From Kappaphycus alvarezii (lineage: Eukaryota > Rhodophyta > Florideophyceae > Gigartinales > Solieriaceae), in the NCBI GenBank assembly GCA_002205965.3, contig NADL03000638.1, forward strand, positions 310,001 to 374,000: DNA of 64,000 nt, read 5' to 3'. The notes under the pieces are model-generated. The model was not told the origin of the DNA and ran no database searches. It worked only from the letters and a program-made list of their open reading frames with translations. Within the stretch, counting starts at the first letter, position 1. Each line of letters starts with the position of its first letter. Of the stretch, positions 11,341-48,960 are shown in pieces. A program made the position numbers and the translations under genes.

Positions 11341-12495
11341 GCATTAAGAAGCTGTGTGGGTAAATCCTTGATAGATTTGCTGGACATTATAAGAAGTCTC
11401 CCTGGAGAAGTAACAAAACAGCTATGTCGTCTGCAACTCGTCGACGATCCGAAAAGTTCCATTGTATCGATAGCAACGCTGAACATGGTAGAGGTGAGTG
11501 ATGAGCCCATTGGGGGGAAGATGGATATACAAATAGAAGCATGCAACCTCGCCAATATGGACGTCTTTTCACTCAGCGACCCCTTCGCCTTGCTGCAAGA
11601 GTGGTCAAATGGAGACTGGGTTGAGATTGGTACGTCAGGTCCTATCTTTTCATCCTCGCTTTTTAAGAGGGACTACTGTACGTGTTGCAAATCTCCCCTT
11701 TCCTCTAAAGGTTTCGACCCTAACCATTCACATAATTGCTTCGATTCCTGAATGTCAACATTATTAAGGGAGGACTGAGACAATTTGGGATGTCCTTAAT
11801 CCAAAATGGGTTCGCTGCTTTCAGTTGCCACCTGAAACCTCAAGGACTCACCGTCTCAAGGTTACAATTTACGACCGAGATTCGAAGACACAGGATCTTG
11901 AGAAACAAGAGATCATTGGGTCATGTCAATGCATTGTTCAGGATATTCTTGAGAAAAGAAGCAACGGCATGAAAATGGAACTTGAGAATGATCAATTGAA
12001 GCAGACTGGCACAGTGACTGTAGTTGGGGAGCTGCAGGACTCAACGACCATCCAACATGAGATTTTTTTGGGACATTGTAAGTTTAAAAATACTTCCTTG
12101 TTCGGAATGCTACTAATAAGACCGTATATCACGATATACAAGAGGCGACCGAACAATGAGTGGGCAGCGATATTCAGGTCAAAGGCGAAAAAAGAGGAGA
12201 AGATGCTGCATTTTCTAAGGATCTTTTGCACAGGGCTATCATTCGGACATCGGGTGGTGGAAATCCGGAAGAAACTCCGCTGCGAATTGAGTTGAGGTCT
12301 CATCGGTCCATCACAGAACATAAACTGATCGGGGCGGTGCAAATGTCCCTTGCTTCACTTCGTCGACAAGCAGTTGGGAAGAAAATCAGTCTCGGGCTTG
12401 CCGGGGAGTCTGTAGGGGAGCTTTACATAACTCGAGCGACACTTGATGGTGCATCAAGCAGTTTTGATTTTGAGGTTTCATTCTGTGCAAACTAA
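11341..12495 (+). CDS. Copine-like protein with two C2 domains and no von Willebrand A domain
   Basis: Copines are cytosolic proteins that bind phospholipid in a calcium-dependent way through tandem C2 domains, followed by a vWA domain. Here the first C2 has the family signature DVFSLSDPFALL, then EIG joined across an intron (11630-11768, GTACGT...TTAAG) to RTETIWDVLNPKW, and later TIYDRDS. The second C2 reads SLFGMLLIRPYITIYKRRP and later PLRIELRSHRS and HKLIGAVQMSL. A one-base loss in the A6 run near 12189 breaks the frame inside C2B; restoring it gives one continuous frame to the TAA at 12493. The SDPF-type and DxD calcium ligands are kept in C2A but lost in C2B (LIRPY, RSHRS). The first in-frame ATG is at 11485. 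However, the frame is open upstream to a good acceptor (CTAAC...AACAG, ending at 11340), so an upstream exon is likely. No vWA domain follows before 13 kb. Confidence 0.82.
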
Positions 12496-13133
12496 CCATT
12501 AGCACAATTAACGTCATTTTTAAGGACACAGATAAACCTTTGAACTGTGTCCTGGTCCGAAGGGTGCGTGAACTTCTGCCAAGAAAATGAATCCCCCCGA
12601 TCTAGGCATTGTTTTATTTTTTCATCCTGTGACACTCTCTCGGACAGGAATTCTTTTGAGATGCTTGGGCTCTCACTCTATTCGCCTTTGAGGGAGCAGC
12701 CTTGTTTCGTATTTTGGCATTTACCATGGCAATGGGAGAGAATATCGTAAAGATTAGGTTGTTCTATCGGTTCTGCCAGATATTACGTAAGCTGACGACG
12801 TCTACCCAAAATAGTTGGCTTTGAAAAGCGTGGATGGCGTCGCCATTTCCGTAGTGATAAGCAAAGAGGGCCACAGTTTGTGATGAAGAATCTAGTGCAT
12901 TGCCCATACGATACCTAGACATGCATAGTTATTGAGTGCCCAAGTGTTTCGGGGAGACTTGGGTCATGGACCTACGTCCCCGGCCAAGGTACGAGTGACA
13001 AGATGTTTCTCCGCTTTCGCAGCCATCCTTTCCCACCACGGCCAACTTTGGAAACACGCATATCTACATACCAAGGGAAGACGTGCTACGACCATGGGTG
13101 ACTTCAGATCACACAGTCGTCGAAAGGCATTTG
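12496..13133. other. Convergent intergenic spacer
   Basis: This spacer lies between the 3' ends of the copine-like gene and CDK5RAP3. No further C2 or vWA coding sequence, RNA gene or repeat was seen. Confidence 0.6.
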
Positions 13134-14730
13134 TCAGTCCACGGGAGGAAATACGTTATTAATCTCCCCCAATATATTCACAGTCCTCCCCTTGTACAAT
13201 GCGGATAGCGCATCCTCAGTTCTTCTCTTTATGTCTCTCGTAACCACGCCAAGTTTTTCGAGCTTTGGCAACTCGACCGCGAGGTCTTCCTGTGCTTTCA
13301 AGCGACGTTTGCGCAGCACGTCAATAGCGGTATGGGTTCTTTCTACGGCACGTTTCTTGTCAACAATTGTTTTTGCCACTCGCTCCAAGCGATTGGGATC
13401 AGACTGCAACGCAAGCATGCGGCGGGTATCCGCTGAATTAATGGCGCCTATTGCCGCCTCAACAGCCTCTTGCATCTGCTTTATCTTTTCCGTGTCAACG
13501 GCCTTGACACGGTCCGGGGCACCCTTGGCCTGTTGCATGATGACTCCAATGTCCGTATCACCCAAAAGAGACAACTCTGCTGCACGCTGTGCCAAAAAGG
13601 CGTCCAGCTCGATCAAATCGTTCATAAACATTTCACGAACCGCAGGATCCGCCAAAGTCAGCTCCTCAGGACCAACAGCATCACCGCGTACCTTTTCCCC
13701 CCCTTCTTCCCGTCCAACGTGTCCACAGTTTCATTGCTCTCAATACCCCCATCTCCCACAAGCAACTGTGCATTTCCCGCACCCTCCTCAACGCCGCCAT
13801 GCGCTTCATCCGCAGTGCCCGAGGCGTCGATCCCGCTTCCCCAATCGACCTGCGCATGCGCTGCATCCGCAGGGTCAGCGTCACGGTCCACATGAATATC
13901 CCAATTAACCGAGCCACCGCCCTTGACTACCACGCCTTCCCTCCTCAAAGGCCGAACAAGTTGATCGACATCACCCTCCATAACCCTTGTTACAGTGGCG
14001 CACAAATCAGCATCCACATCACCCCCACAAACATAAGCTGCAAACATGTGGTAATACCGCACAGCATCACCAAATCGGACCTGCTTGACACAGCGCACCG
14101 CTTCCCGCAACAACAACGGGACCCGTCGTTCAACTTCCTGTCCCAGGGCGCAAGAATAATCCATACCCTCCTCCTTTGCCAAATGAAACTGTTGACAAGC
14201 GGCATCGAACCTATCCCTCGCTTGCGCAGCGGCCGTCACCGCCGGGGCATCCCGTTTCGCCAACTCCGTGGCCTCCCGTTGCAACGCTGCAATAACATCC
14301 TTAAAAGCACGGGCGTCGACATCTGCATACCTAGTCAAGACCTGTGCACAATCGGCCAAATATACAAACTTTTGCTCAAACGCGGCGACCGCAGCCGCCC
14401 AAGCGCGCGAGGTAGGTTGTTTATAGCGGCCTACAAGATCCTTTTCAGGGCCTGCTTGCCACTCGGAGGGTATGTCAGGAGCGGTGAGAGCATGGAGGAT
14501 GTCGCGGGCGTGAAAGTAGGGGAGGGGGATGTGAGTGGGTCGGTGGAGGGGAGATTGAAGGCTGAGCGGGCGGCGGGGGGCGTGGTATTGATGGCATGGC
14601 GGAGGAGGGAGCGGGCCTTGTTGAGATGGGTGTGCCAGTCGCGTGGGATGCGACGACGGTCGATGAGCCAGGGGAGAAATTTGGCGTAGTCGATGTCGAT
14701 CGGGAGCTCTTCTGGTTGGGCTTGGACCAT
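13134..14730 (-). CDS. CDK5RAP3: CDK5RAP3 / C53 (LZAP), UFMylation and ER-phagy adaptor
   Basis: C53 works with the UFL1-DDRGK1 UFM1-ligase complex at the ER and links stalled-ribosome stress to autophagy. The N-terminus has IDIDYAKFLPWLIDRRR, the start of the helical domain (human IDIQTSKLLDWLVDRRH). YFHARDILHAL and GRYKQPTSRAWAAAV follow. The C-terminal helical domain has MNDLIELDAFLAQRAAEL, a coiled coil, and ends in YKGRTVNILGEIN. A disordered acidic linker between them carries VNWDI (about 13892-13909) and VDWGSGID (about 13826-13849), resembling the IDWG ATG8/UFM1-binding motifs of known C53. The reading frame breaks twice: at a C4 run before YFHAR (about 14525) and at a G7 run before EKVRGD (about 13697). 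One added base at each gives 532 residues, normal for the family (human 506). No intron is needed. Confidence 0.93.
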
Positions 14731-17307
14731 GGCCGGGGTTGGGAGAGGTGTCTGGTTGTGGCGGTGGTGGGGAGAGAAGAGTTTGGGGAGCTGGGGATTG
14801 ATGACTGCAAGGCAGCCAAAGAAGAAGGTGGGGGGCAGTGAATCAACTTGTACTCATCTGTAGAGCAATGTAGAAGTGTAAAGCTGTAAGCAACAGGAAA
14901 AAGTCTGCAAGGCTACCCAAAAATTACAGTGTTATACTGTACAGTACAGTACAGTACGTACGGCTGTAAATGAGCGTAGGCGAGGACACGGATGCTGTTG
15001 TGCATAACATGCATAATACAATTATGTCACATACAGCACAGTACAGTATTATGTGAATGAACTAGTTTGCGGATTGTGCGCATGAACGCGTACTGCAGAA
15101 GGTTGCGTGCCGGTGGCATGCAACAGTGAGACATAGCAACGCATCGCGCCGGAATAGGAGGAAGTCCGGATGGAAGGTTTGGGTGGCGTTCTACAAGGAA
15201 TGCGGCAACTGGCGGTACTGTAGAAGGGTACGGTAGTAGACATAACTGCTCGATAGGGGCTGGAGGGTGCATTAGTGGTGGTAAATCTTTACGAGTTGTA
15301 CAATACTGTATTGCGCAGAAGCTTGTGGAGGGTACTCAGAAATTAGAGTAGGTATCGAGGTGGCCGGGGATTGCGGCTGCGAACTGGTACGGTTTAAGCC
15401 GGTGGTACACCGCAGGAGTTGATACAGTGCACCCAGCAACTGTGGTGACGTGACTGGTTCTTCCTGAAACTATCGCAACTAGTGCACTGTACTGTACCAG
15501 CGCACAGGATATTTACAGCAGGACTCCCGTACACCTGCAGGGGCAGTACAGTACTTTGCAGTACGGTCTTCCTGACAGCAATGCGGTACAGTACCCTACG
15601 TACAGTACGGTACCAAAGAGAAGGAGAGGAGCGTAGGTATCCACGGTGATTGGAGAGTTGTGAGGAGCCAATGAGAAGGAGGCATTGAGGATGTCAATTA
15701 TACTGACCAATGGATGAGATTTGTACAAAATGAATGCATTTGATTGGCTGGTAATCCATACATTCCATAAACGAATATACAGTATCAGGAGCGGAGCGTG
15801 TATCTTGCGAGGAATACAGCATCGTTGATCAGCATACAGTTATGCACATGCAACGTAGAGTATACGAGTTCCGTCTCGATCAATGCAGTCAGTGCAGTCG
15901 GCCAAAGAAAATTGGAAACAAAGCATGAATCGGCGCTCATCTGCAGGAACAATGGCATTTATTACTTGGGCACACTCAATCCCTCGGATGAATCATGCAG
16001 TATGGATTGGTGGCCAGGTGGCGTCGATTCGGGACTTTGACACATGGAATTGCGCCCTCCTGTGACTCAGATCCGGCCGTGCAGAATATCAAAGCGACAA
16101 GCACAGCTGCGCTGTGCGTACCATCACATTCCATGGCAGCTCAATAGCGGCACGGATCCGACGAGAATATACACGGTATGTACACTAGTTGAAGGATCCT
16201 TCCGCACGTGCATCATCGAAAAACATCTGCAGTTCAAATCGCACCCAACATGTATGTAGATACTGTACTGTACAGTAGCAAAAGCAAACGGACCTGTTTC
16301 ACCTGCCACACTTTGCTCAACTCAGCAACATAGCCCACTTGGCGGTTTTTATTAGTCAGGAGTTTAAATAAATGTTCACCACACCACCCATCCACCACCC
16401 AAAACCCGCCCCACCCTTATAAAACCCCCGCTTATGCCCACAACTTTCCCCAAAAGCATTACCCCAACACCATCCACCAATCCTCCGACATCCGCCCCAT
16501 CAAACCACGACGCATTCCCACGAGTCGTGGACGCAGTGGCACGTTACGTGACCATCGCCCGCAATCAATCGCGACACTTCCACCAAATCCACACATGTGA
16601 GCAGGCAAGTGGTGCCGACGGGACCCCTGCCCCAATCGGACCATCACCACAAAGGCAACCCAAAGGCAAGCCAAAGGCAAACCACGCACACCATGACCCT
16701 GCTCGCCGCCCCCCGCAATAATATACCCGTGAATATGTACAGGTACAGTACGTTACTGTACCGGACACCAACGCCGACGCTTACTCTCCCCTTACCCAGC
16801 ACCGCATACCTCAGCCAAACGCACACCCACTGCAACCGCAACCGCAATCGCAACCGCAACCGCAACCGCAACAGCAACCGCAACCGCAACCGCAACCGCA
16901 ACCACAGCCGTGACGGTGTGACATTACATGACAGAAATACGCAAATTCCATACCTCCCCTTGACCAGCGCCAATCAAACCACGCCACGTTACAGTCACCA
17001 TGCATTGTCCCCCTCCGCCCCCCTCTCAACCCCCGCACAATACTTTAACCCCCCCATCCCCCGCAGTCACACAACACTGTCTTTTCATAACCCTCCCAAA
17101 AATTCCAACTAAAAGTCTTCCAACCCCCGCTCCCCACTCTCATCTCAAAATGCTCAAAACATTCAAACATTCTCAACCTCTACAAACCCGCCACCCACAA
17201 GACTTTACTCACAACAAACAAACAAAAAAACACCACGGCATCAACCGCCCATAAACCAACTCTAAAAACCACCCCTCTCCCACCATCCCAAACTCCCTCC
17301 AAACCCC
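14731..17307. other. Intergenic region rich in TACAGTA/GTAC palindromic repeats
   Basis: No conserved protein was recognised. The stretch holds repeated TACAGTA, GTACAGTAC and GTACTGTAC words, notably at 14935-14960, 15485-15620, 16262-16276 and 16738-16762. An AACCGC hexamer array is at 16833-16910. The modest open frames around 16434-17254 are Pro/Thr/His-rich because the plus strand is C-rich, and they have no domain features. The stretch may hold promoter and untranslated sequence for CDK5RAP3 at its left end and 3' sequence of the SAP30-like gene at its right end. Confidence 0.6.
16833..16910. repeat. Hexanucleotide tandem array (CAACCG)n, about 13 units
   Basis: Thirteen 6-bp units are nearly perfect CAACCG, with single variants CAATCG and CAACAG and a degenerate last unit. 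Read as protein the array gives Asn-Arg dipeptides. I see no conserved protein around it, so I treat it as a non-coding minisatellite. It is not a telomere repeat. Confidence 0.85.
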
Positions 17308-17750: not shown

Positions 17751-19260
17751 CTCCCGACCCGAATATTCAAACACACACCCCTCAACTACTCTCTCTCACA
17801 CTCACAACAAGCAAACAAAAAAAAGGGAGCAACCACAAATACAAACGATCAACCGCCCTTGTTCAAAAACTCGTACACGCGCTAACCCCCCGATCAACAC
17901 ACACACACACACACAAACTGTCTTTCACGTATACCCCACGCTCACGTACGATCCACACGGTCCGCCTGCTACCTCGCTTGCTCGCACACACTGCAAACAA
18001 CGCACCGTGTGCGGAGTTTTGCAATCGGTTGTGTGGAGATGGAGTGTTTGGGGGGTAGGGGGGGGGGTGTGCGATCGCGGTGGCGTGAGGGTGGGGAGGG
18101 GAGGATGGGGGGAGTGGGGGTGTGAAAAGGGAAGATGTGTTTGTACGACGGCGGCGGTGAAAACCAGAACGTTGTATGTTATGAAGGGAGGGCGGGGGGT
18201 GGGATGGGTGTTTAGTGTGCGGTGTGTGATGGCAGAGGAGTGTGAGGGGGGGGTGGAGCGGTTGGGGTTTGGGGGGGGGGGGGGGAAGGGCGGGGTCGGG
18301 CGGCGGGATGTGACGGAGCGCGGGGTATGACCTCGTTTGTAGGCGGTGTGAACAGGGGGTTGTGATGGCTGATGTGTGGCCGGGCCCTAGGGGGGCGCGT
18401 TGGGCCGCCCCGGGGCGGACGGAACGCTGCTGAACGCCGACGGTCTTTCGCTCTCTCGCGTGTGATGCCGCCTGCGGTACAGACGGCGGAGGTTTTTTTT
18501 GGGTGCCTTTGGCGGTTATTTTTTTTTGGGGATTCGGTGTAGGGGTTGGGGGGATGGTGGAATTTGGTGGAATTTGGTGGAATGGGTTTTGGGCGGGTGT
18601 TTTTGCCTTGGCACTGGTGCTGGGTTGGGAGATTTTGCGGTTTGAACGAGGGTTTTTGGGAATTGTTTTTATGTTGAAATCAAGTGTAACTTTGCTTACA
18701 TGACATTCGGTGCTGTGCAAAGTGGACCTTGTGGATCATGCCACGCTGGACTGCGCTGTACAGTACTGTCTGTACTGGATTGTTCTGGACTGTACTGTAT
18801 TGTACCGTACATATTGTACAGTAATGCGTTGGCTGTAACGCGTACAATGCCCTGTGTGAGTTACAGTACAGCACCCTTTGCAAGAGAAGACAGTGCTGTA
18901 CTGCCGTAGGCGAATGGCAGACCAACTCTACCACAGGTGCATCATAGTACTGTACTGGCCGCCCAATTTATGGAACAGGCGGGAAATTCAAAACTATCCA
19001 AATCTAGATCTGCGCATAACTTCTTTGACCAAACCTCTTCATCTGCAGTCATCTACCGATGTCCAGATTCTCCCTCCTCAAAGCTACGGTGCTCGTCATA
19101 AATATACGTTCTGACGGTACTCGGCAACTCCACATCAGATTTAAATAAACTTTTGCCACATGTTGGATATTGATAAATTTAGCATGATGGCGCAATCAGA
19201 ATACAAAAAATAATACGTTTAAAAAGTTATGCCAAAATAACTGTTTCAGCTGCTTCATAA
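17751..19260. other. Intergenic, G-rich on the plus strand, then TACAGTA repeats
   Basis: From 18050 to 18600 the plus strand is very G-rich, with uninterrupted runs of G10 (18058-18067) and G15 (18271-18285). Long Pro/His-rich openings on the opposite strand (17863-18720) come from this skew and show no domain. From 18750 to 18960 there are dense GTACTGTAC and TACAGTA words. No gene was recognised. Confidence 0.6.
18271..18285 (+). repeat. Uninterrupted run of 15 G
   Basis: G15 lies within a stretch containing several shorter G tracts (18241-18310). It could form G-quadruplex DNA. Its exact length is doubtful, given the homopolymer errors found in the genes of this window. Confidence 0.7.
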
Positions 19261-20451
19261 ATATACGGTCAGGGGCAGAACAAGGCAAAATGGGAGTCAC
19301 AGTTGCGGTTTCCTCGCCAACTTTCTTTCAATGCGAGTTATAAAGGCCTTCTTTTGCTACAGAAGCAAAGGCCAGGCACCTAAAACACCCGCAACCATGC
19401 CTAGAGGAACCGAACTGACCGCAGAAGAGCGCAGGGCTATTTTAGCCGTTCGAGGGGAGAATCACTCCCACAAAGTGATCGCAAAGAAGCTAGGAAGATC
19501 TCCGGACGATGTAAGTAGGTTCTTAAGAGATCCCAACGGTTACAACACAAAAAAGGACGGGTAGGCCACCGAAATGTTCCGCCACAATTAAGCGGCGCAT
19601 TGCACGAGAAGCTGCGAAGACTGGACACGGCCAACAGCAGCTTAAAAAAGAAACTCAACTCACTGTTCCAAAGTCTACTTTATTGCGCATACTCAATGAA
19701 GACAGTAGAATAGTTTACAATTAGATGAAGTCCTCTTTTTTTCTCACAGCGGCTCATAAAGAGAGCTGAATGAACTGGAAAGAGGAGATGGGGCAGTGGG
19801 GGAAGAAAAGGGGAAAAAAGTCCTCTTTTTGTCTTTTTGGACGAAAAACAGTTTAATCTAGATGGCCCAGACGGTTGCGCTTGCTATTGACATAATTTGG
19901 GGACAGAAGAACGCATTTTTTCAAAAAAGGCAAGGTGGTGGAGCAAGTCGTATGGTATTGGGATGCTTTCCATTTCATGGTTCTTGTGATTTGGTGTTTT
20001 TGGAAGGAAGACAGAAACCCGAGAAGTACAAGAAGACAATGGACGACAATATGTTGCCTTGGGCTGCTATAACGCATGGAGAGAACTGGGTGTATCAGCA
20101 AGACAACTGTTCATACCATGTGTCAAGTGCTACGAGGGGTTGGTTTGAGGCGAATAATATCGATGTTTTAGAATGGCCGTCACGCGATCCCGACGTAAAA
20201 CCAAAAGAAAAAAATTGTGGACGGTCGTTCCTAGGGCTCTTTACAAGGATGCAAGGCAGTTTTGGTCTACTTCGGAGCTAAAACAGCGAATTGTAGAATG
20301 CTTGAGTAGCATTCCCGAAGAAGTGCTTCAAAAGCTGGCGTTGTCGATGGTTAGGCGTTGTTTAGCTGGTTTACGAAGCGAAGGAGCTAAAATTGCCTAT
20401 TAAAACGATGGCTCGTGAAGAAATAGCTCTATAACAAATTCTGACCGTATA
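19261..20451 (+). mobile_element. Tc1/mariner element A, about 1.19 kb
   Basis: Short terminal inverted repeats flank a transposase. TATACGGTCAG lies at 19262-19272 on the left and its complement CTGACCGTATA at 20441-20451 on the right; the TA at each end fits a TA target site. The inside holds a complete set of Tc1 transposase segments broken by frame shifts. Its size is close to that of a minimal Tc1 element. Confidence 0.75.
19397..20403 (+). pseudogene. Tc1-type (DD34E) transposase, frame-broken
   Basis: This is a cut-and-paste transposase. It starts at ATG 19397 with MPRGTELTAEERRAIL, a helix-turn-helix DNA-binding domain (HKVIAKKLGRSPDDVSRFL), and then GRPPKCS in a second frame. The catalytic core has VYQQDNCSYHVSS (second Asp) and EWPSRDPDVKPKE (Glu). 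These are 34 residues apart, which is the DD34E spacing. The tail in a third frame reads SELKQRIVECLSSIPEEVLQKL. The first catalytic Asp region (FSDE) is not visible in the expected place near 19740-19850, so a piece may be deleted. At least two frame breaks are present; some may be sequencing error. Confidence 0.8.
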
Positions 20452-23254
20452 CTGTTGAAACGACCAAAACACATTTTTTTAAAATAACTTCTTCAGAAGT
20501 AAAGATTTTATACTTTTTTTTGATTATGCTTTGGTCGTGATTCTGAACGACACTGTGAAGAGTTTGTTTAAATGTGACATATATTTGCTGTAATATACAA
20601 GAACGTATATTTATGACGCGCACTGTACTTAACTCAACCCAATGCCGACTTGCGGCGCTCTCAACCTCCTCAAACTCTCACCGAAATGCACTTTGTAGAC
20701 ATTCGCACCCCTGCCCGAAACGCAACTGTCACCACAAAGTTACGGGCACTTTCACGCGCCCGAATAGTTTTCCACACCACTCGTCATGGCTTTCAATTGC
20801 GCCTTGCAATTTCAAACTAGATTTCCAGTCAACTATTTTGTGTATTCCTGTGATGGCTGACTTTACAGTATGTCAAACTGAGATAAGTACAGCAGCAATT
20901 TTTTTCCTTGTAGTGGGTTGGTGAAGGTTTTGTTTGAATCCTGACTAAAAGCCGCCCTAAGGAATATGCTGTAGCAAGGTTTGCAAAGGGCGAATCGATG
21001 CCTACTCCAAAACAAAACAGTCATTGTCAGCAATTAGGGTTTAGGGGGTTTAAATCCCCTATAAATCCCCCAAGTCCCCTAATCGCAGCGTCACCAGATC
21101 TCCCCAAGGGTGCAATTCAGATCTATTTAAAATCAAAGCGATTCCCAAAGCAGGTTCAAACTGTGCGGAGGTTTGGCAAGTTGACATAATGCGACCAAAG
21201 ATGTCCCTTCCGGAACTCTTCTAAAGGGGGGAGTCATCATTAAATTATTTCCTCTTTTAATAATTTAAAGTAACAGCGAATGGACGTGGTTCCTTTCATG
21301 GTTGTGCATCAAAAACTGCCCGCCTATCTCTTACAAAAACTCATCTCAAATGGGACATGTCACAGTGGAAAAAGGTTGTGATCAGCTATGAGAAGAAGTT
21401 CAATTGAGATGACCCTGATTGGTTTGCAAGATATTGACACGATATATGCAAGGGTAAAAAGATTTTTACACGGCACCAGATGGGAAAGGGCTCGCTGATG
21501 CCATAACATTCGATGTCATACTACGGAATTTCTAATTTATGTGTGATTCATGGAAGAGTGAACTCTGAGATGTATTTCAGTTTATTAAGGGAGGAGCTGA
21601 AACCATTTGCAGCTGCAAATCTCGGAGAGGAATTGATACGCCAACAAGATAATGACGCGGTCCACACTTCTGAAGACAAGATAAACTAGCTGGAGGAAAA
21701 TAATGTATCTCTTCTACTTTTGCCTACCAAAAGCTCCGGTCTGAATATTATAGAGATATGTAGGGCATTATCGCGCGATGAATTTACGGCGGTGCGAAGC
21801 AGTTTGGCTCGGTGGAAGGTCTCCTAAATGCTATGAGCGAGGCTTAGGCTGAGATTGGACTAGAAGCCATTCATTCTCTTTATTCATCTATTTCGCGGCG
21901 CTTGATTTTAGTTCTGGAGAGAAATGATAGTACGAAAAAGTACTAGCTCAATAAAAATGCTACTATAAAGCTCCAGGACTATCTCCGAATCATATTTTGA
22001 ATGGTGTAATAATTTCGTAAAGGGTAATTTATGTTTTATTAAATTATTATACCAGGTTATACTTGGATTTAACGATGGAACACTGAAATTTTGTGTTTAG
22101 CACTCCTAAATTTGTAATCTCAAGGATCATATCGAGAAAATGGAGAGTTTTTGCTTAGATTTATTGTGAGCATAATTTAAGCTTAAGTATCTCCGGTAAA
22201 AGGGGCTGAAGCGAGATTTATTAATGCAATAAATGCTGGTCAATCAAATACGCTGTTTATCCGAGCCATTAGCGACATTAAACAATTACTATCGCGAACT
22301 GCTCAGTCAAGTTATACTCTCTGGAGACGGTGCAAACGCGAAGCACCCGATGTATTGTAGTCTATGCTTTGATTCATTTTTCAGGCTCGAGATAGATAGC
22401 ACTATAGAAAAATCGCAGCTATCGAGAAACGGGAGCTCATGAGCAGGACATTTTTAGTAAAAATTACCATTCGATGCAATTGGAAGTTTGGATTACGCAT
22501 TTAGGGATGAAATAAATAAACTCTGAAATGAGGAAACAGCTAAATACGAATCCGTAAGAAAATTCAAAGGCATCGTAGAAATGATTTTAGTAATCATAAT
22601 AGCGATAAAATACATAGCCTTGTAGCGAAATCTGTTGATCAAATTCGATTTATATCATTTAACTCTCACCTTGCGACTAGTTTGTCGGTTCTACCTAAAT
22701 TACTGGATAGAAAGTATCCAAAAGCTCAACTATGGCAATTTTTCAACTGGGAAGTGACTTTATTCACTTCTAGTCGTATATCATGCTCCGATCTGTTACT
22801 TATATGGACAGATAATGCTATGGCTTCTCTTTGTACCATTAGAAGACCGTCATATGTCTACAACATCATAGATAAATACTCTTCTGACACATTAGAATGG
22901 CTTAACACATGGGTATCACTTTGGTACTCAGCGTCTTCTCTCCTAGGAACATAGGCGACAATTAGCTTTATTTTTGCACCTTGAATTTGCTCTTAAATTA
23001 TAGCTATGTTTTCCCTTCTTGTTGCCCGTCAGTATCAGCATTGACATCGTCATACCCGATGTGTTGATTCGTTGAGCAGGAACTTAATTATTCATTACAT
23101 TTCACTAAAATACAATCCAATTTACTTCTAATCGGCCCTACTGACTTTCGGAGGTCTTGAAACTCTCACACACTTTAGAAGAATCCTTAGCCAACATTCA
23201 CTCTCAAAAAAGTTTCATTGATTTTGGCGGGTGTCACAGATATTACACGACTAT
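20452..23254. other. AT-rich transposon relic zone without a gene
   Basis: No intact coding region was found. Around 21040-21095 there is a small imperfect palindrome with GGGTTTAGGGGG and ATCCCCC tracts. The remaining open frames are short and in AT-rich DNA. Confidence 0.55.
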
Positions 23255-23329
23255 TTATTTTATCATAGATACGGTTATTGCTATGTTGTACAATCTATAA
23301 GAGCAAAACCTTCGATTCGAATAGTATTT

Positions 23330-25074: not shown

Positions 25075-25075
25075 A

Positions 25076-26601: not shown

Positions 26602-26760
26602 TGGGATGATTATATACAGAACTTACTCCACACAAAATTACCAAGAAAATAATCTTTTAGAAAAAAGAAATGACGAATGACCACTAGAGGGCCAGATGAA
26701 ATGCAAAAAATGCAAATTCAGTGTTTGACATAACAGCATCATCGAAAATCAGATGGTCAA

Positions 26761-36036: not shown

Positions 36037-36661
36037 TCACTCCAGCCCCAGCTGCTTCGCACGCCGCCGACGCAGCACCTCAAACGGGTTACCCCCCTCC
36101 GCCGCCCGCCACCTAGCTCCACGCTCCACTTCCTCCAAAATATCCACAATCTTCAACCCCGCCGGTTCAATCTTCTGTTCAAACCCGTCCGCTACCCAAA
36201 CACCACACAAATACAACACACCATATCACCACAGTTAGTCTCCGTCCCCACTCACCCCCCACCACACACACAACCTCCCCAATTCACGTACCATATTCCA
36301 GCGTTATCAACGGCCGTCCATACTCCTCCACCAACGACAACTCCACCTTCAACCCCTTATTCGCCCTTTTCACCGTCGGCGCTCCAACCCGTCTTACAAA
36401 TTCACTGCCTCCACCAACCCAATCCCACCAATCCCCATCACACATCCCACAAAACACACGCAGTCCGAAACAAATATCACCATGTCAGAACACCCCGCCG
36501 TTCAACATCCCTGTATCCAACAGCGCGGAGGTGCACTTGCCGTACCGCGCCGTCGTAGACCGATGGTCAAACGGGTTCAGCTCGACCCGCACCGTACGCA
36601 GCGTTTTGAACAGCTCTGTCGCTTTACGAGATGCCGCTACCGCGCGAACCAGTTGACCCAT
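36037..36661 (-). CDS. MRPL53: Mitochondrial ribosomal protein mL53 (MRPL53), three exons
   Basis: mL53 is a small protein of the mitochondrial large ribosomal subunit with a thioredoxin-like fold. Exon 1 (36546-36661) starts MGQLVRAVAASRKATE and contains the family hallmark VRVELNPFD. Intron 1 (36405-36545) has GTACGG and GAGGCAG ends. Exon 2 (36292-36404) gives EFVRRVGAPTVKRANKG, then ELSLVEEYGRPLITLEY. Intron 2 (36192-36291) has GTACGT and GGGTAG ends. Exon 3 (36037-36191) gives DGFEQKIEPAGLKIVDILEE and a basic tail. The three exons join in frame to 127 residues, matching the family length, with no frame break needed. It is divergent from ALG10 with about 375 bp between start codons. In a three-exon gene none of the exons alone is conspicuous, so this gene is easy to miss. 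Confidence 0.85.
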
Positions 36662-37036
36662 GTTGAAACGTTGCCGCTGCGATACGTTGGAGGGTACGAC
36701 GAACGCCCGATCTGGCCACTATTCCCAAGATGTAGTACAGTAGCACACACCCTAGCTAGGAGCCCCCGTTTTAAAAAAATTTTGAAACAATTAAAATTCG
36801 CGCTGTGCCGTCGGCGACACCGTAGCCCATATCACCTCCGTCACCATCTGGCACACACCGTTTCACTTTCATCGTGCCGCTCCAACCGCAGCTGGGTTTC
36901 CGACCCGTACCAGCGGCCCGACTCACGCCCAGCCCTGCCCCCTCGCCCGCACAATGACGGCCACTCCCCTTACCACTCCCCACCGCGCCAGCATTCAACA
37001 CACATGAGCTACGCCACGTGCTCAACCGCACAAAAA

Positions 37037-38871: not shown

Positions 38872-41800
38872 TCACTCCCCTACCGTTTTCATATCCTCAG
38901 TCCGCAGACACCTACAGTACATCCTCACTTCCTCTGCGAATTCCTCAAATTCTACTAGTATTCGGTCCAGCCAATCACTCATCCCCATTTCCCTCCCGCT
39001 TGTTCCACCGCACCATGTTTTCACAAATCGCCCCACCACTTTCAACAGTTCCTTCCGCAGACCGTCGCGATACTCCACAACGCGTCCAAATGCCAATTTT
39101 GACATCTTGCCCCGCTCCTTCTCTCCCCACTCCCTCTGTAAAACTCTATAAACACCCAAAATGTTGCAAACCACCTTGTCCCGCAACCCCCCATCTTCCA
39201 TCTTGGAAACCACACCCCTGAATTCATCCTCTCCCAACTTTCCCAACCCCCAAACACCCTCCCAACGCACACACAAACGCACGCGCTCTCCCCAACCTCC
39301 CCACCCCCCTGCCCACTCCAAACCCCTCCCCCACAATCCCCCTGTAATCATCCTCCGCCACCACATCCCCGCCCAATCTTTCCCTCATCCAGTACGGCCC
39401 ACTCACCCCCACAACCGCACCCTCTCCTCCCACAAAACCCCATCATCCCATCCATACACTCCAACACCCCCTCATACTCCTCCCCCCCAACAAACCCGTA
39501 CAGAAACGGCCCCATCCCCGCCACATACATCCCCACATCAATCACATCCACCACACTTTCACCACCCGCACACCAACTCAACCCACCCACAACCCCCGAA
39601 AACCTCCTCACCGCACCTTCCACCCCCTCCACCCCATCCGCAACATCTCGACCGCACTGCAACACAACACCAATCCCCAACATTCTTGCATTCCCATCCA
39701 CCACACCACACACCAACTCACTCATCCCTACAGCCATCTGCGTCTCCCGCTCATGCCCCACCGCGCTCCATTCATCCAACGCACACATCGCCCGTTTCAC
39801 ATCCCGCGCCTGATCCACCAACCTCCGCACCGCACACACCCACACTGCCACTCTTCCCACATCCCCGCAAACGAATCCCATACCATGCAAATGTTGCACA
39901 CTAACAACACCTCGCTTGTACAACCCCTCTCCCCATCATTCCGTCTCCCCTCGCACCGTTCCAGACTTTGAAGCACGTATCGCAGACAATGCGCCGGCAG
40001 CGGCCACAACGTCGGCATCAAATACTCGGCAATATGCGAGTCTGCTTTGTCAAACCCCGCCCCTATTCCAAAGTACCACTGTCTCCGCATGGACAACGTC
40101 GACAACATTCGCAATGCCGCTTCCGCCCCATGACGTTGTATGCATGTCGCCACCATCTCTGCAAGTGTGCACGGGTTGTCCCCGATTCTCCATTCGTCGC
40201 CCTGTTCACAAGCGGCGTTGCGTCAGCGTACATGAGCAGCCTTGTAATATCCAATCCGCGTTTTGCCCTGAGGGTGTCGTCTCGACCGCCAGAAAGAGGC
40301 TGGCTTCGCCGATTATGGCGCTTGGGTCCATGCCGGAGCGTTGAAAAGAGGCAAGTACTTTACGTACGCTGTTTGGCCGGCCCCACCCGCATCGGTACTC
40401 TGTCTTGAGCCAATCGCGTAGGGACCGTCGCTCGTGCCCGTACAACTGATCAGAGGACAACATCAGGGCGGCAGTGCGCAGAATATCTGCCGCATCCTGC
40501 GTTACTTGTTCCGTAATGCTGTTCTTGAACTGAGCGGCTGTGTGCGCTAGTAATCTCCATGGCACGGTGACAACCCATTGTACCAAACTCAAAAGCGGCT
40601 TGGTGAGCAGTCGATAAAGAACGGAATCTGCTGCATGTTGTGCGCTTGAGTTGTGATCAGAGTAGTTGGCATCTTCCACACGATCATTAAGCAAGTATCC
40701 TTCATCTCTTGCTACTTTAAAAGAGCACAAACTATGGAGCGCAAATCGAACAGAATGTCTGACATTCTCCCCATCGCGCAGGGATAAACACTCGAAAATT
40801 GTCTTCACAAACAGGTGCTGCGTATCTGTGGAATTGGAGTATGGCAAGTAACATAGGTCTGCTAGGCACGACTCTCCGATCAAAAGGGAAACTACGGAAA
40901 TTATCTGCGCAAGGGCGACTCCGAAATCAGGAGTGACAGATGCCAACCGCATGCATACCAGAGCAAAGAGGTGGTGTTGGAGCTGCCGATGAAGTGAGCG
41001 CGAAACCTCACTACCGATCACTCTTGCGAAAAAAGTGCAAAGAACAGAACCGCATTGTCGCCACCATCTCCGATATGACCCCACGAGCCTCTCGTCGTCT
41101 TCGTTACCCTCCTCGCTATCGGTAGTATCATGTTGATAATCTGAGGTCAAGGCGTTCAACATTCCTTGCAAAGTTTCTGCCGCTAATGCTGCAGTAGCGT
41201 GGGGTTCCTTTCGTCGCTCGAGCTCCTCCTTAAATCTTTCCAACATGTTTGCAACTGCCGTTTCGCTCATGTCAGCGGAACTTCCGTTGGGCATGCCGCT
41301 CGCCTTTAGACACGTCCGCTGCTTCTGAAATGATCGTTTCAGCACAAACTCTACTGTGTAAGCAAAGTCCTGGTTCTCTTCGAGATCCGAGTTGTTGGGT
41401 CTGGACGGCGGTTCAACTTGGTCGTCAGTGTCTTTCTGTTTTACATTGCGACTAGATGCTTTGATCGCAGATATAGCCGTATGGGCTTCTTCCTTTGTAA
41501 CAGCATTGTCCCTTCGTTTGAAGGCCATGACTTTGATCAGATTGATTCGATGCTCATCAAAGGCTCTTTTGTCCATAAATGGATTCACCCCCGCCTCAGT
41601 TGTAGGGGTGAGATCAGGCCTTAGGAGAACAGGAAGAGTATTGCCTCGAAAGTGGTAACGATGAAAGTTCATCTGTCGTACTAGAGAGGTGGGAATCTTA
41701 CCACCTGATTGTGCAAATTCTGAAACAAACCGACTGACGTCAAGTTCAGCTTTTCGCCGGCTCTGTGACGCCGGCAGCTGGGTCCCATCACTGTTCAAGT

Positions 41801-43157
41801 TAATTCCATTGGAACCCGTCCTATGCATTGGATCTAGGTCACTGATCTTGGCGCGCACTTCAACGAGATAATCGCCAAACTGGCGAAGATGTTGCCTGTT
41901 TGCGGAGAGTACTCTATGGTTTGTTCTCAAATACTGCACCGGCTCTAATGAAACCAATTCACTCAGCGCGTTTACAATGGCCTTCACTACAGGACCATCA
42001 CTTGCACGGACAACGTTCTTCAGCCAGCGTTCATGCTCCACAAAGCCCTGCGCATCCTTCTCTCCCTCTGCTGTGAACCCTTTAGGATGAAACAAGTGCC
42101 TCGCAAGACATAACAAAGTGGCCATCACATACCCGTCTCCCTGCGCATGCACTGAGCTGAGCGCCGCTGTCACCGAACATTCCATGGTAGTCCTCGAAGT
42201 AGGAGCGACGTGCGAACTGCTGTGATCCAAAATGCGTTCGATCAATACACAAGTATATCCCAAACGACCCTTCACGATGACATGTCCCTTGCCATCCGCC
42301 AGTGTCACAACGACACGGACACCTTGACTAAACAACGCGACAGCCGCCTCCAGCGACACCCCCTGCACAACGCCAAGACCGCCTTCTCTTCGTCAACGCC
42401 ACCTTTCAAATACTCTGCCACCTTTCTCCCGTTGCCAAGCCACTCAGTTCCGGTGTCCACACACGAGATGGCCTTCCGCAGCTCCCCCCCCATGTTCCCG
42501 TTTTGGCAAAACGACATGGCGGGCCCATTCCTCCAAGAGTCCATCCGCGACACCTCCTTCGCCTGCTTCCTTCCTGATAACATCGACGACGATGCGGGCC
42601 AACTTAAACTTGAGAGGCAGGTCGACTCCCGCTTGGTCATCTCCGAATAGGGCGGCGATGAGCGCACCCAAGGTGCGCTCGCCTACCCTACCGAGGTCCA
42701 ATAAAACATGAAGCAAGGCTTCGATGCCTGGATATACGCCGCGACATGAGCATAATTCAGGATTGTCAAGCTCCAGGGTGGCCCTGACGAGGAGAGATTG
42801 GGATGGAATCTCGATGGGTCTTATGAGGCGATGGCGGATTAATACGGAAAGGGCGCATAGTGGAGGGAGAGTGTCTTGGTCGAAAAAGAGGGCGGAGATA
42901 AGTTCGGAGGGGGCGTGGAAACGGGATTGGAGATGGGATTGAAGGGTAGATAGCGGAGAAGGGTCGGCATGTTTGGATATGCATGTTAGAGAGTCACAGA
43001 GGGTGGAGAGGGTGGGAGGAAGGGAAGGGAGGGGGAGGTGGGAAATGGAAGGGATGGAGAGGGTGGAGTTTTGGGTGGGTGCGGGGAAACAGGAGAGGAT
43101 TTTGGAATGGAGGGAGGGGGAAAGCAGGCGCGTTTTCTTGGTAGGAGGGGGGATCAT
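38872..43157 (-). CDS. FANCA: FANCA-like Fanconi anaemia core-complex protein
   Basis: FANCA is a subunit of the Fanconi core complex, which ubiquitinates FANCD2-FANCI in interstrand crosslink repair. The strongest segment is the 720-codon frame at 40206-42368. LVSLEPVQYLRTNHRVL aligns with human VPFEPPLYLKVH. DVSRFVSEFAQSGGKIPTSLV then NFHRYHFRGNTLPVLLRPD aligns with human DVEKAIMVFEHTGNIP... and FRRPYYVSHFLPALLTPR. The order and spacing agree. The N-terminal part (42444-43157) is a helical, Leu/Pro-rich region starting MIPPPTKKTRLL, with a Lys/Arg nuclear-type motif. The C-terminal third (38872-40206) is spread over four or more frames, joined at G runs such as 40243, 40177 and 39927. Ten single-base additions make one frame of about 1,431 residues (human 1,455). 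Family assignment of the last 400 residues rests on continuity only. It is divergent from eRF3. Confidence 0.83.
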
Positions 43158-43985
43158 CGAGGTATCGGAGGAGGAAGAGGGAACATTTGGGCACTGTTGG
43201 GGTTGCGGTGGCTGTTGCCGCCTGCCTGTGAGACCGGTGATGGGTTGGCAGAGACGCGTTGCTCGCTCAAAGTTGGGGGGAAGCAGTCGGATCCGGATGA
43301 CGATCAGTTTGTCTTTCTACGATTACGCGCAATTCGAAATCGAGGAATTCTTTTTGTTTACAGCGCATTACAGTAATTGGAGAGTACAATTGTGATCAAT
43401 ACAGAAACTTGAGCTTACACTGTAAACAAAACACACAAAAAGCCCTCCAACTTGACAGACCTGTCTTATACTGTAGCTAACCTTACTACTTGGATTGAAT
43501 TTGTATCGAACCAAATTCAAGTACATATTGTACAGTACATGTGTATGGTTTTGACCCGTGTATAGTTTAAGGGCAAAATTTTGAGAAATAAAATTAAAGT
43601 TTTTATGTTTTCATGTTTTCCAAGGTTACACAACCCTGTACAAAGGGCTTTTAGTGGGCAGAAAGCTGAAATATTTGACAATATTTGCTGACAAATGACA
43701 GGATTAACATCCTGATCCCCTCTAGCTAGATCAGCACAGCCCATCGGCTAACAATTGGCTAGATGCGGTACAGTACTGTACAGCACCTTACCTGCGTGTC
43801 AACTTGACCCAGATGTTTCCTTTCAACTCTAAACAACACTGCTCCACGACGCCCGCTTCACCCTTGCCAGTTTCGCTCACGCACCACCCTCCACAGTGTA
43901 AATCCATACCCATCATCCCACCCTCCTCCCACCAACTCCAAACCGGCCTCTCCCCTTCCCTTCCCTTCCCCTGCACACCGCCACC
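43158..43985. promoter_or_regulatory. Divergent FANCA-eRF3 intergenic region
   Basis: This 828-bp spacer lies between two start codons facing away from each other and must hold both promoters. It contains the 12-bp palindrome TACAGTACTGTA at 43770-43781, shared with other island spacers. A pyrimidine-rich tract (CCTCTCCCCTTCCCTTCCCT) sits just before the eRF3 start. No TATA box is evident to me. Confidence 0.5.
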
Positions 43986-45636
43986 ATGAATCCGCAAGCC
44001 AGTGAATTCATCCCCTCGTGGCTCGCCCGTCCCGCCGCCTCCTCCGACGCCCCGACTCCCAACCTTCACCCCCTCAAGCATCATGGGAGGATGCCCACAC
44101 CGTGGACCCTGTATCTCCTGTCACTACTGCTGTTTCTGCCGTCAACATCTCTACCGATGCCGCCTCAAAAGACGTTGCAATGACACCTGCGCCGCAACCG
44201 CTGGTTGACGTCAAGCACGAGTCGAACGTCGCGCAACCGGAAGTGGAGGGTAAGGGGGATGTCGCGCCGTTTGATCCGAATGCTATGGACTTGGATGAGA
44301 AGAAGCCGTTGAATGTCGTGTTGTTGGGGCATGTCGATGCGGGCAAGAGTACTATTTCGGGGCATTTGTTGGTGCTGACGGGGAATGTTGATGATCGCAC
44401 TATGGAAAAGTATGAAAAGGAGGCAAAGGCTTTGAATCGGGAGAGTTGGAAGTTTGCATTTGCTTTGGATACTTCGGAGCAGGAACGTGCAAAGGGAAAG
44501 ACCGAGGAGTGTGGTCAGGCTAGTTTTACAACTGATACCAAACGGTTTACTATTTTGGACGCCCGGGTCATAAGAATTATGTACCGCATATGATTGGGGG
44601 GGCCTCTCAAGCTGATATTGGTATTTTGGTTATCTCGGCAAGGAAGGGAGAGTTTGAGACGGGATTCGAAAGGGGTGGCCAAACAAGGGAGCATGCAATG
44701 TTGGCAAAGACCTCCGGTGTGAGGCAGATGGTCATCGTTATCAACAAGCTTGATGATACTAGTGTATTGAATGTGGACGGCACGTGGAGTAAGGAACGCT
44801 TTGATGAATGCAAGACCAAACTAGAGCCGTATTTGAGGCAGGTCGGCTGGAATCCAAAGGGTCTTGTCTGGATCCCTGTGTCCGGTATCACCGGTCAGAA
44901 CTTGAAGGATAAGGTGGATCCTAGTGTGTGCGGTTGGTACAAGGGTGAGTCTTTGCTCGACACGTTGGAACATTTGCGCCCGCCAGAGCGTTTACTGTCA
45001 GGGCCTGTGAAAATGCCAATTTCAGAGAAACACAAGGAAATGGGGACTATGGTGATGGGGAAATTGGAATCTGGTGTGATTCAGGTGAATGACAAATTGG
45101 TGATGATGCCAAATCGAGTGGATATAATAGTAGACGCGTTGCAACTTGAGGGATCAACAGCGCAAGCGGCAGAGCCAGGGGATGTGGTGCGTCTACGATT
45201 GAAGGGCATCGAGGAGGAGGATGTACGTGTGGGATTTGTGCTGTGCTCACCGCGAGATCTGGTATCGTACACGCGGACATTTATCGCAAAGTTGGTAATC
45301 TTGGAGCACAAGAGCATTATCTGTGCAGGTTACTCTGCTGTGATTCATATTCATGCGGCTGTGGAAGAGTTTAAGGTGACGCGATTATTGGCTGAGCTGG
45401 ACAAGAAGACTGGAAAGGCAAAGCAAAAAAATCCAAAGTTTGTCAAGCCTGGGATGAGGTGTCTGGCTACATTGAGAACGTCGCAACCGATTTGTGTGGA
45501 GACGTATGAAGTGTTCCCACAATTGGGGCGTTTCATGATTCGCGACGAGGGAAAAACAGTCGCCGTAGGGACGGTTATGAGACTTTCGGAGGATAAGGAC
45601 GGGGATGCGAGGCAAGATGGATCAAGTCATGACTAA
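43986..45636 (+). CDS. GSPT1: Eukaryotic peptide chain release factor eRF3 (GSPT/SUP35)
   Basis: eRF3 is the GTPase that works with eRF1 in translation termination. The start MNPQASEFIPSWL is a PAM2-like poly(A)-binding-protein motif. A disordered linker is followed by the G domain: GHVDAGKSTISGHLL (P loop), DDRTMEKYEKEAKALNRESW, DTSEQERAKGKTEE (switch I), TILDA-PGHKNY (G3) and INKLDD (G4). The C-terminal beta-barrel domains follow, including GFVLCSPRD and the GxRCLATLRT region. FETGFERGGQTREHAMLAKT favours eRF3 over HBS1. Two frame breaks occur: a C4 run at about 44074 in the linker and a C3 run at about 44563, inside the DAPGHKN motif. One C at each restores 550 residues. The N-domain is short compared with yeast Sup35 and has no Gln/Asn-rich prion segment. 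Confidence 0.96.
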
Positions 45637-45936
45637 TGAGCGGGTTGAGGGATGTTAATTGCTAGGTGTTTTACTTTTTGTATCGCTGTGGGCGTTTGGA
45701 TCGAGTTTGGTCATGATGGAGAAACGGCATAGGAACAGAGGTAGGGGGTGGGACGGGTGTAGATCCAAAGAAGGTATGAAGAGGCTGGGTGAATGAAACG
45801 TGAGGGTAGATGGCCTTAATGCAAATGCCAGTACTAAGTAAATATGTTGTAGGAACGCAGCGAGCAGGCGTTATTGCAGGGCGAGAGTATGTCTTGCGAG
45901 AAGGGGATATGTAGTGAAGGTCCGTTCCCTTTTTGC
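45637..45936. other. Convergent eRF3-TRAPPC1 spacer
   Basis: About 300 bp between two stop codons. It should hold both 3' untranslated regions. Nothing else was recognised; the minus-strand opening through 45671-45946 has no family features. Confidence 0.6.
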
Positions 45937-46358
45937 TCAAAAGCATGGGAGTGCGCGAACGTAATTGTCGAGTTTTGTCATGAAAAACTCAGATTTGATT
46001 TCCTCCCCGCGAACATAGAGAGGATTTTTGCAACGTATTCGACATAAACGGAGTCGTATATTTCTTGAAGGGACTTTGAAATGTCGATGTTACCAAAGTT
46101 ACTACTCGTGGTGAGTACGAAACGCAGACCGGAGGGTGTTTCAAAGTAGTGCAGTGCGTAGACGTCGGTTACAAAGTGGGTGGGAACGCCTTTGGTGGGT
46201 CTGGGGACAATTTGATGGAAAAGTTGCGGAGGGCAAAAGCATGCCAAACATGTTCTTCTGGTCGTCGGAACGATCGAGAGGGGGCGTGTGCGCTGCCAGT
46301 CGCGGTAGCATAGGCAATTTCCTGTGCGATCGAAAAGGTAGAAACTGAAAACTGCCAT
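45937..46358 (-). CDS. TRAPPC1: TRAPPC1 / Bet5, TRAPP complex subunit
   Basis: TRAPPC1 is a longin-fold core subunit of the TRAPP tethering complexes, which act as nucleotide exchange factors for Rab1/Ypt1 in ER-Golgi traffic. The protein starts MAVFSFYLFDRTGNCLCYRDW, the family's typical N-terminus. SDDQKNMFGML then LRNFSIKLSP and THFVTDVYALHYFETPSGLRFVL follow, matching human YKLMYGMLF, IRSFVSKMSP and YKLHYYETPTGIKVVM. After VEYVAKNP comes SEFFMTKLDNYVRALPCF, like human SELFRSRLDSYVRSLPFF. Four one-base losses break the frame: at a C5 run (about 46285), a T4 run (about 46241), a C3 run (about 46183) and an A5 run (about 46031). Restoring all four gives 141 residues (human 145). The true stop is TGA at 45937-45939, beyond the first stop at 45978. 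It is convergent with eRF3 and divergent from the TPR gene. Confidence 0.93.
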
Positions 46359-46892
46359 CGGGGGCACTGGGGGGGAAGGGGTGATGGCGGAGGAGGATAG
46401 TGTCTCGTTGGGGCAAGATGGGGCATTATTGTCATTGCTGAAGAATGCAACGAGTTGCGATGGGTCAATGGATCAGGGGTTCACCTAATTGCCTTACAGT
46501 TCTGTAACAGTGCCTGTGTTACGGCGCCATCGAAATTACAGTGTTGTCCGTACTGTAAATTTATGGAGTATAATGCTTTGCTGTACACCACTTTTGCGAA
46601 CACACATACAGTAAAGTACAGTACTGTATGTGGCTCCCTCCCTGAGTGCAGCACTACTGTATTGATGGAACTCATCGAAGACGTTGCGATAAAACCGTCC
46701 GGCCTGGTAGCAGAGAAGACGTCAGAGTGCAGCAGTAGACAGGTCGTTAGCATTGCACCCGGGAATCCGTCCAACAACTTGACTTTCACTGACTCTTGTT
46801 GGTTTCAACTTCATTCGCACCGCACCACGTGCTCCGCATCCCACTCACTCGTCCATTCATTTCAACCACCGGCCAGCACAAGCAGCAATCAC
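46359..46892. promoter_or_regulatory. Divergent TRAPPC1-TPR intergenic region
   Basis: The 534 bp between opposing start codons should hold two promoters. It contains TACAGTACTGTA at 46617-46628, plus nearby TACAGT words at 46537-46556 and 46607-46616. The plus strand is G-rich next to TRAPPC1 and C-rich next to the TPR gene, so both nascent transcripts begin C-rich. Confidence 0.5.
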
Positions 46893-47635
46893 ATGGCAGA
46901 CAGCAACGCAACCGAGTGGGAGGTAGGCAGTGATGATCCCGCCGAAGAGCCCGCCGACTTTAGTGAGCTGGATTACGATTACAGTTCCGTACCAGAGAAA
47001 ATTGCCGCCGGTCTAAAAGAAAAGGCCAAAGGAAACGCGCTCTTTGCCAAGGGAGACTACGAGGCGGCATGGAAGCAGTACGATCGTTGCTTTGTTCATG
47101 TGTACACGTCCAAGGAGGAGTGGGAGGCAATCGGGAAGCAGGGACGGACTGATATTAACAACTTTAAAATGCCATGCCATTTGAATCGTGGGTTGTGTCG
47201 CTTGCGGACGCAGGATTTGGATAACGCCTTGTGGGACTTTTCGGAGGCTTTGCGCATTGATCCGAATAATCCAAAGGGCTTGTTAGAAGGGCTGTGGTTT
47301 TGATTAGCTTGGTGAAAAAGGATATGGCAAAGCAAGAGACGGATGAGTTGTGGGATTTGGATGTCGCTGAGGGAAAGGCAGATGATGCAAAAAAGGACCT
47401 TGTCAAGGCTGTCAGGCTTGCTCCTAACGATGTAGCCATCCGGAAAGCTCTTGACGACCTAAAGCAAGTCAGGGACCAGCTCGTTGAACATCGCAAGAAA
47501 TATCGCGCAGATCAGAAAAAGTTGTACTCGCGTCTCATCTCCAATCTTGACAAGGAGAACCAAAAGTTGAGGGAGGCTGAGGAGAAAGGTCTCTTCGCCG
47601 ACATGCCTCGTCTAGAAAGACTGCGGATAGATTAA
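46893..47635 (+). CDS. TPR-domain co-chaperone-like protein
   Basis: This is a predicted cytosolic tetratricopeptide-repeat protein of 247 residues, resembling the TPR half of FKBP52-type immunophilins and other Hsp90/Hsp70 adaptors. An acidic N-terminus starts at MADSNATEWEVGSDD. TPR 1 is LKEKAKGNALFAKGDYEAAWKQY. TPR 2 is PCHLNRGLCRLRTQDLDNALWDF, and TPR 3 begins at DPNNPKGLL and RAVVLISL. A charged C-terminal helix carries KKLYSRLISNLDKENQKL. The KGN, LNRG and KxLLxR positions fit a carboxylate clamp that binds EEVD tails; this is inferred from the pattern. No isomerase domain is present. A one-base loss near 47285 (TTAGAAGG) breaks TPR 3; restoring it joins the two frames. The start at 46893 is preferred because the upstream frame runs through the TACAGTA-rich promoter. 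Confidence 0.83.
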
Positions 47636-47964
47636 CCTCTTGCCGTAGTTTTCTTGTCTCTTACGCTGCTGTTTGTCCCAGCCCGTCGGACTATTACCGA
47701 GGCATTTTCGCTCAGTTATGCTTGGCATTGCACCATGTACCAAACGGTTTGAGATAATCTGCGGTAACTCGTTGGAAACCCCACATCGATTGGATAATTC
47801 GTTGTTCAGGACCACAGTACTGTCACCTGTGATACATGCGTAGCATCGTAATTGTGAGTCTGACTGCCGAATCTACATCTACAGGGAGCGCATGATAGGA
47901 TGTGTGCATAATGTACAACAGTCGTATGTCACAATAAAAGCACTAAACCGAACTGCTACTACCA

Positions 47965-48960
47965 TCACACCAGCACACTTGACCCCAGACTCGCCTCTGG
48001 ATTCCGACTATCAATATCCTGATGACCTGGAAATGGTCTCTTGACGACATCCGGTGAAAACTGAGGCATATCCTTCCGAAAAGTATCCAAAAAGAGTTCC
48101 GCAATCAGACGATTTCCATCTGCATTGAGATGTAACCCATCACACAAGAAGGTGTCAAGCCCCTCCTGCAGTTGCTCCTCGGTTTCCCATAGCGCTCGCA
48201 GACGGCCCATCATTTCCGAGTGAACATCGACCACGGGCACCCAAGCTCATGTGCCACCGTTACACACGCAGCGCATAATCGCGAGTCCTCGCCGGCAATC
48301 GTTTGGGGGCGCTTGTTGTTCCAGGGTAGCTTCACCGGCGGAGGTGTTACAAGGACAGGTTGAATGGGGTCTACCCTTCTGAAGCGACGCACGTATGTTA
48401 CCAGTTTTCGCAAGTTGGCAACGTACTCGTGGAGGGGTACATGCTGTCGCTCGGAATCGATTACAGCATCGTTTGCTCCGAAAAAAATAAAGACAATGCC
48501 GAGACGGGCCTTTCCGCTGCATTGTTCTAGAACGTGGGGGAATATGTGGCAAGCCCAGCGTGTGTTGTATCCACTGAACCCCTTACGAACAAATCGACCT
48601 TTCCGGAATAAACCTCCTGTAACCTGAGACTCCATCCCGGGGCATCATCGCCAGATGCGTGGGTACTGTATTCTGTGATGGAATCACCGAAAATAGGATG
48701 GCGGGTAGTGTGGCCTTTGCGGCAGGGAGGACGGAGCTTACTGCGGTTCGGGAGGCCTTCATTGCGTCGGACATGCGCGACGAAAATGAAGAGAAGATCG
48801 TGGAGAGAGAGTCGGCCTTTGTCGGAGGAGGTGGTTGTTGCAGGACGTCGCCATCGATGCCATCGACTATGGCAGGGGCGAAGAAGGGCTCGTCGGGAAG
48901 GGGAGAAGGGGGTTGAGGTGGGGCCGGAAGAATCTCTTCCTCAGCTGCGGCGGACATCAT
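47965..48960 (-). CDS. IAH1: IAH1-like GDSL (SGNH) esterase with N-terminal extension
   Basis: Isoamyl acetate-hydrolysing esterases are SGNH-fold hydrolases that cleave short-chain acetate esters. Block I reads FFGDSITEYSTHA (nucleophile Ser). GWSLRLQEVYSGKVDLFVRGFSGYNTRWA follows, then block III IFFGANDAV, YVANLRKLV, and block V DGLHLNADGNRL with the catalytic Asp and His. The order and spacing match human IAH1. Three one-base losses break the frame: a T4 run (about 48691, before FGDS), a G4 run (about 48581, before FSGYN) and a G3 run (about 48242, before VPVVDVH). With these, 332 residues are continuous from ATG 48960 to the stop at 47965. The extra 90 or so N-terminal residues are Pro/Ala/Glu-rich, not a clear signal peptide, and absent from human IAH1. 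It is convergent with the TPR gene. Confidence 0.92.

Follow-up and report, generated by a model that had tools for sequence, protein, structure and literature searches.

The 64,000-nucleotide stretch of DNA analysed here (the window; positions 310001 to 374000 of contig C634 in an assembly of 336,021,096 bases and 884 contigs) comes from an organism that is eukaryotic as judged from its gene content, and it carries eight candidate protein-coding genes, labelled copine, CDK5RAP3, ALG10, FANCA, eRF3, TRAPPC1, TPR and IAH1 in an earlier sequence-only reading, whose reading frames are interrupted. With a probability of about 0.96, we consider these frame breaks to be consensus errors of a poorly polished long-read assembly and not a biological feature. 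Most breaks would then be one-base undercalls that become more frequent in longer runs, the underlying genes would be ordinary and intact in the organism, and the locus would have been assembled three times (on C634, C9 and C16), each copy with its own errors. The sequence-only reading had already favoured long-read consensus error, and this view is now supported by two further copies of the locus within the assembly, a comparison that was able to fail, because insertions or deletions (indels) outnumber mismatches, climb with run length, hit coding sequence too and are not the same in each copy. From this pattern we infer that the cause lies in sequencing or polishing rather than in mutation.

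A search of the whole assembly found positions 43900-48966 three times, namely in the window, on the near-identical copy C9 (99%) and on the more divergent copy C16 (97%). The duplicated stretch as a whole, to which no strand is assigned, spans positions 6342-49177 and matches C9 at 99.3%, with parts found on C16 at 82-97%. Such redundancy is not confined to this locus: C9 and C28 are almost exact duplicates of other contigs, C16, C27, C36 and C43 match other contigs at about 95-97% where compared (82-97% for C16), and errors are denser in several of these six. All of them are likely haplotigs whose redundancy inflates the assembly size, and C16 is probably the other haplotype of the locus studied here.

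Alignment of the window to C9 over 42,921 aligned columns revealed 192 indel events, of which 158 are one base long (45 bases absent from the window and 113 absent from C9), and 48 mismatches; without the divergent end, i.e., over positions 6342-46500, 146 one-base indels stand against 18 mismatches. The indel rate per run rises steadily with run length, from 0.0014 over 0.0056, 0.017, 0.046, 0.13 and 0.16 to 0.23 for runs of one to seven bases. Runs of at least three bases, which comprise 20.4% of all bases, contain 33 of the 45 window losses (p about 4e-14) and 62 of the 113 C9 losses. The location of the breaks in homopolymers that had been read from the sequence is therefore correct for most window losses but not for the 12 of 45 that fall in runs of 1-2, and runs of 1-2 contain 63 of all 158 one-base events. 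Coding sequence is hit like the rest, since one-base indel densities over 6342-46500 are similar in coding segments (21 in 7194 bp, or 2.92 per kb) and elsewhere (125 in 32,965 bp, or 3.79 per kb; Fisher p 0.33) and none of the 23 coding indels has a length divisible by three; the coding count is biased low by the choice, made by hand, of segments that are open in the window.

The positions of the breaks differ between copies. IAH1 is fragmented in the window but runs as one uninterrupted 335-codon frame in C9, while a 501-codon frame of ALG10 and a 728-codon frame of the FANCA candidate are open in the window and fragmented in C9. The break in the TPR gene is found in the window only of the three copies, and a C9 frame of 222 codons spans the respective interval (47270-47300). 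Downstream of position 44563, the three-copy alignment of eRF3 shows no break in the window, two in C9 and five in C16, all of them losses and all differently placed, and the window's own eRF3 break sits just upstream of the part that is broken in C9 and C16. For 12 of 16 break intervals, which were set by hand and several of which are wide, another copy holds a base that is absent from the window. The copine interval contains a run of six in the window that is one base shorter in C16, and this difference in length is a sign of a miscalled run.

Taking as reference the open frames of the window that have family support (7660 bp), we count 17 losses and 7 extras of one base in C9, and 41 losses and 9 extras in C16. 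In 22,439 three-way columns (omitting one chunk, 18490-19080), private one-base losses number 13 in the window, 49 in C9 and 129 in C16, with private one-base extras at 24, 16 and 38, respectively, though a private extra may equally be a loss common to the other two copies. C16 also carries real divergence, with 736 private substitutions in the same columns.

The earlier argument, in which added bases mend every break, is not a test in itself because one or two of them repair any shift; the informative quantity is the count of -1 against +1 switches. We determined these signs from the coordinates of stop-to-stop open reading frames (ORFs) and, for TRAPPC1, from an alignment that allows for frame shifts and penalises losses and gains equally. 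Each of the eight genes shows at least one frame switch as had been claimed, and outside FANCA 11 of 12 switches are -1 (three in TRAPPC1, two each in CDK5RAP3 and IAH1, and one each in copine, ALG10, eRF3 and the TPR gene); in FANCA, by contrast, two of four switches are +1, so the one-sidedness of the repairs does not extend to this gene. Homologue alignments at the lowest penalty suggested additional shifts, losses and gains alike, in CDK5RAP3 and copine as well as one further loss in IAH1, which disappeared at higher penalty and were not counted. A parse based on codon usage gave nothing on copine, TRAPPC1 and IAH1 (at two of three penalties) and revealed the mixed signs in FANCA.

The gene names hold up for CDK5RAP3, ALG10, eRF3, TRAPPC1, the TPR gene and IAH1, with Pfam support (CDK5RAP3, DIE2_ALG10, EF-Tu/eRF3 domains, Sybindin, TPR and GDSL lipase) and comparison to PDB structures for eRF3a, CDK5RAP3, TRAPPC1/BET5 and IAH1; ALG10 and the TPR gene were identified by Pfam alone. 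The copine candidate matched a C2 domain in Pfam, and FANCA stayed below the cut-off. The copine-like gene (11768-12492, plus strand; ORFs 11768-12292 and 12160-12492) is likely a copine based on this C2 domain (PF00168, 28 bits), and its best PDB match is Munc13-1 (E 0.0068), with BONZAI1 at E 0.027. Its -1 switch is located within 12160-12292, and the twelfth switch, upstream of it, is +1; the roughly 140 additional bases there start with GT and finish with AG and are probably an intron (11630-11768), as far as their sequence indicates. This GT...AG segment separates two pieces that together resemble a single C2 domain.

CDK5RAP3 (13137-14853, minus strand), with PF05600 split over two ORFs at profile positions 60-304 and 340-502 and a match to PDB 8ohd_B, has one of its -1 switches within 14434-14842 and the other within 13661-13730. 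The switch of ALG10 (36239-38460, plus strand; PF04922, 201.9 bits) falls within 36958-37192, and its 501-codon frame downstream (36958-38460) is the one open in the window. For the FANCA candidate (38875-43316, minus strand), pieces flank the open 728-codon frame at 40209-42392; its label is weak, with PF24781 at 23.2 bits against a 28-bit cut-off, no PDB match at E 0.01 and no Pfam match for the other pieces tried. In eRF3 (44006-45633, plus strand; PDB eRF3a), the EF-Tu profile is split at 76/77 across two ORFs by the switch near 44563, and 44563-45601 is unbroken in the window; a pattern search for eRF3 relatives found none in viral contigs and 20 matches in genome contigs, none of which was confirmed. 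TRAPPC1/BET5 (45837-46472, minus strand; PF04099) shows three losses and no gains within about 330 bases when aligned to either of two homologues of solved structure (PDB 7b6d_C and 2j3t_C), and a fourth break is visible in the comparison with C9. The TPR gene (46680-47632, plus strand; TPR_1) has its switch within 47270-47300, and the IAH1-like GDSL esterase (47968-48966, minus strand; PF13472, PDB 3mil) has both of its -1 switches in the window. Breakage is thus as pervasive as first described in that all eight genes are hit, but it spares long stretches such as 44563-45601 of eRF3 and the ORFs at 36958-38460 and 40209-42392.

Frame switches were also counted genome-wide in four families (copine, TCP1, HSP70 and adaptin), giving 43 contiguous one-base losses and 11 opposite-sign shifts (p 1.4e-5) after six nested pieces, all of them losses, had been removed by hand (49 against 11 before removal). 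This count omits 7 losses, 6 opposite-sign shifts and 3 same-frame gaps that might reflect an intron or insert; the tally including possible-intron rows and nested pieces is 56 against 17. The predominance of losses seen in the window thus extends beyond it, though not to the point of universality. All six matches of a fifth family, HSP90, lie in single open frames of 777-905 amino acids, and the fault is therefore uneven and not a trait of the organism. The fully open HSP90 at C24:292126-293598 lies on a low-numbered contig, so that error density is not simply tied to contig number; an explanation could be that depth is uneven or that expressed sequences were used in polishing.

For comparison, we chose 14 other contig pairs from 35 candidate rows, excluding overlapping loci on the same contig and repeat pairs. 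Seven pairs have 0.04-0.13 one-base indels per mismatch, five have 0.19-0.33 and one has 0.61, whereas the last, C749/C28, a second near-identical pair with 4 mismatches and 17 one-base indels, reaches 4.25; the ratio of 146:18 between the window and C9 is far above most of them. The patchy distribution of the fault over the genome is better matched by variable consensus quality than by a heritable trait.

Real pseudogenisation, in the form of decaying duplicates with reciprocal gene loss, would be in line with the presence of three locus versions with broken genes in each and with the weak third-position bias between the window and C16, yet we consider it very unlikely: 18 mismatches next to 146 one-base indels are unlike ordinary decay, the substitutions expected alongside indels did not appear (a single mismatch in coding segments against 21 coding indels of one base in the window/C9 comparison over 6342-46500), and eRF3, which is essential in known eukaryotes, has breaks at differing sites in each of the three copies. 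A natural mutator that has lost mismatch repair and therefore gains or loses single bases very often might produce the observed dependence on run length, which is similar to microsatellite instability. Such a mutator is nonetheless extremely unlikely given that half of the 14 further contig pairs compared reach only 0.04-0.13 one-base indels per mismatch, that HSP90 is open in six of six matches, and that many events (63 of 158) lie in runs of 1-2 with coding sequence not spared. Programmed -1 ribosomal frameshifting or transcriptional slippage that restores the frame at the breaks would agree with their mostly -1 sign and with four intervals in which no copy has an extra base, but near-identical copies differ in other intervals with one of them carrying the gene open, indels are about as dense in noncoding DNA, and TRAPPC1 would require three shifts within about 330 bases, leaving this explanation with hardly any credence. 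We see scarcely any chance either for a mixed scenario in which the breaks in copine, the second in CDK5RAP3 and the first in TRAPPC1 are real short runs with -1 frameshifted expression, hidden among consensus errors.

Several observations weigh against consensus errors as the origin of the breaks. Losses are not universal, given the 7 extras in C9 beside 17 losses, the 9 in C16 beside 41, the mixed signs in the FANCA candidate (two -1 and two +1 by ORF signs and codon-usage parse), the gains in alignments of C16 to TRAPPC1 and IAH1 homologues, and a TCP1 copy on C36 in which four of five shifts are of opposite sign. Unlike in the window, 33 of the 41 losses in C16 fall in runs of 1-2, and long homopolymers are not clearly scarcer in the window than a first-order expectation predicts. 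The contig pairs at 0.19-0.33 and 0.61 form a graded range, and 4 of the 16 break intervals (copine, the second in CDK5RAP3, the first in TRAPPC1 and the first in FANCA) lack an extra base in any copy. Gene substitutions between the window and C16 are weakly biased to third positions (68 of 126; 64 synonymous and 62 not), which is modest support for purifying selection and weaker than expected; consensus substitution errors in C16 would blur this bias. Under consensus error, the breaks common to all copies are likely systematic miscalls of the kind that the Homopolish report (PMC8011154) describes for nanopore consensus, an expectation rather than a proof in the present case.

Around the locus, the near-identity of the window and C9 ends at 49177, and the window and C16 stay together to about 51169. 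Beyond 49177, C9 continues with different sequence that resembles parts of the repeats in the window (49178-52365) at 85-88% and is perhaps an insertion or a misjoin. The window also contains Tc1/Tc3-like transposase pieces (HTH_Tnp_Tc3_1 and DDE_3; 19241-19561, 21510-21764 and 49883-50751) and Copia-type retrotransposon pieces (RVT_2 and Retrotran_gag_2; 29473-29988 and 51213-54516), of which the first RVT_2 match is under the cut-off.

Residual homopolymer indels that shift reading frames are described in the Homopolish report (PMC8011154) to remain in nanopore consensus after read-based polishing, with the correct allele in the minority. The situation here is alike in that indels lie mainly in homopolymers and disrupt frames, but it differs in that redundant copies inside one eukaryotic assembly were compared and that runs of 1-2 are hit as well, chiefly in C16. 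Similarly, the Kastor report (PMC12007338) states that few errors suffice to inflate the apparent number of pseudogenes in long-read assemblies; gene-fragmenting errors are common to both cases, though that work deals with small genomes that have references and ours with redundant contigs in an assembly of 336 Mb. Redundant contigs within one assembly can serve as a gauge of consensus error that needs no reads, using indels per mismatch, the run-length curve and the coding and noncoding indel densities. For the organism itself, gene models from this stretch are unreliable, and claims of gene loss, pseudogenes or frameshifting drawn from poorly polished stretches of this assembly would be mistaken.

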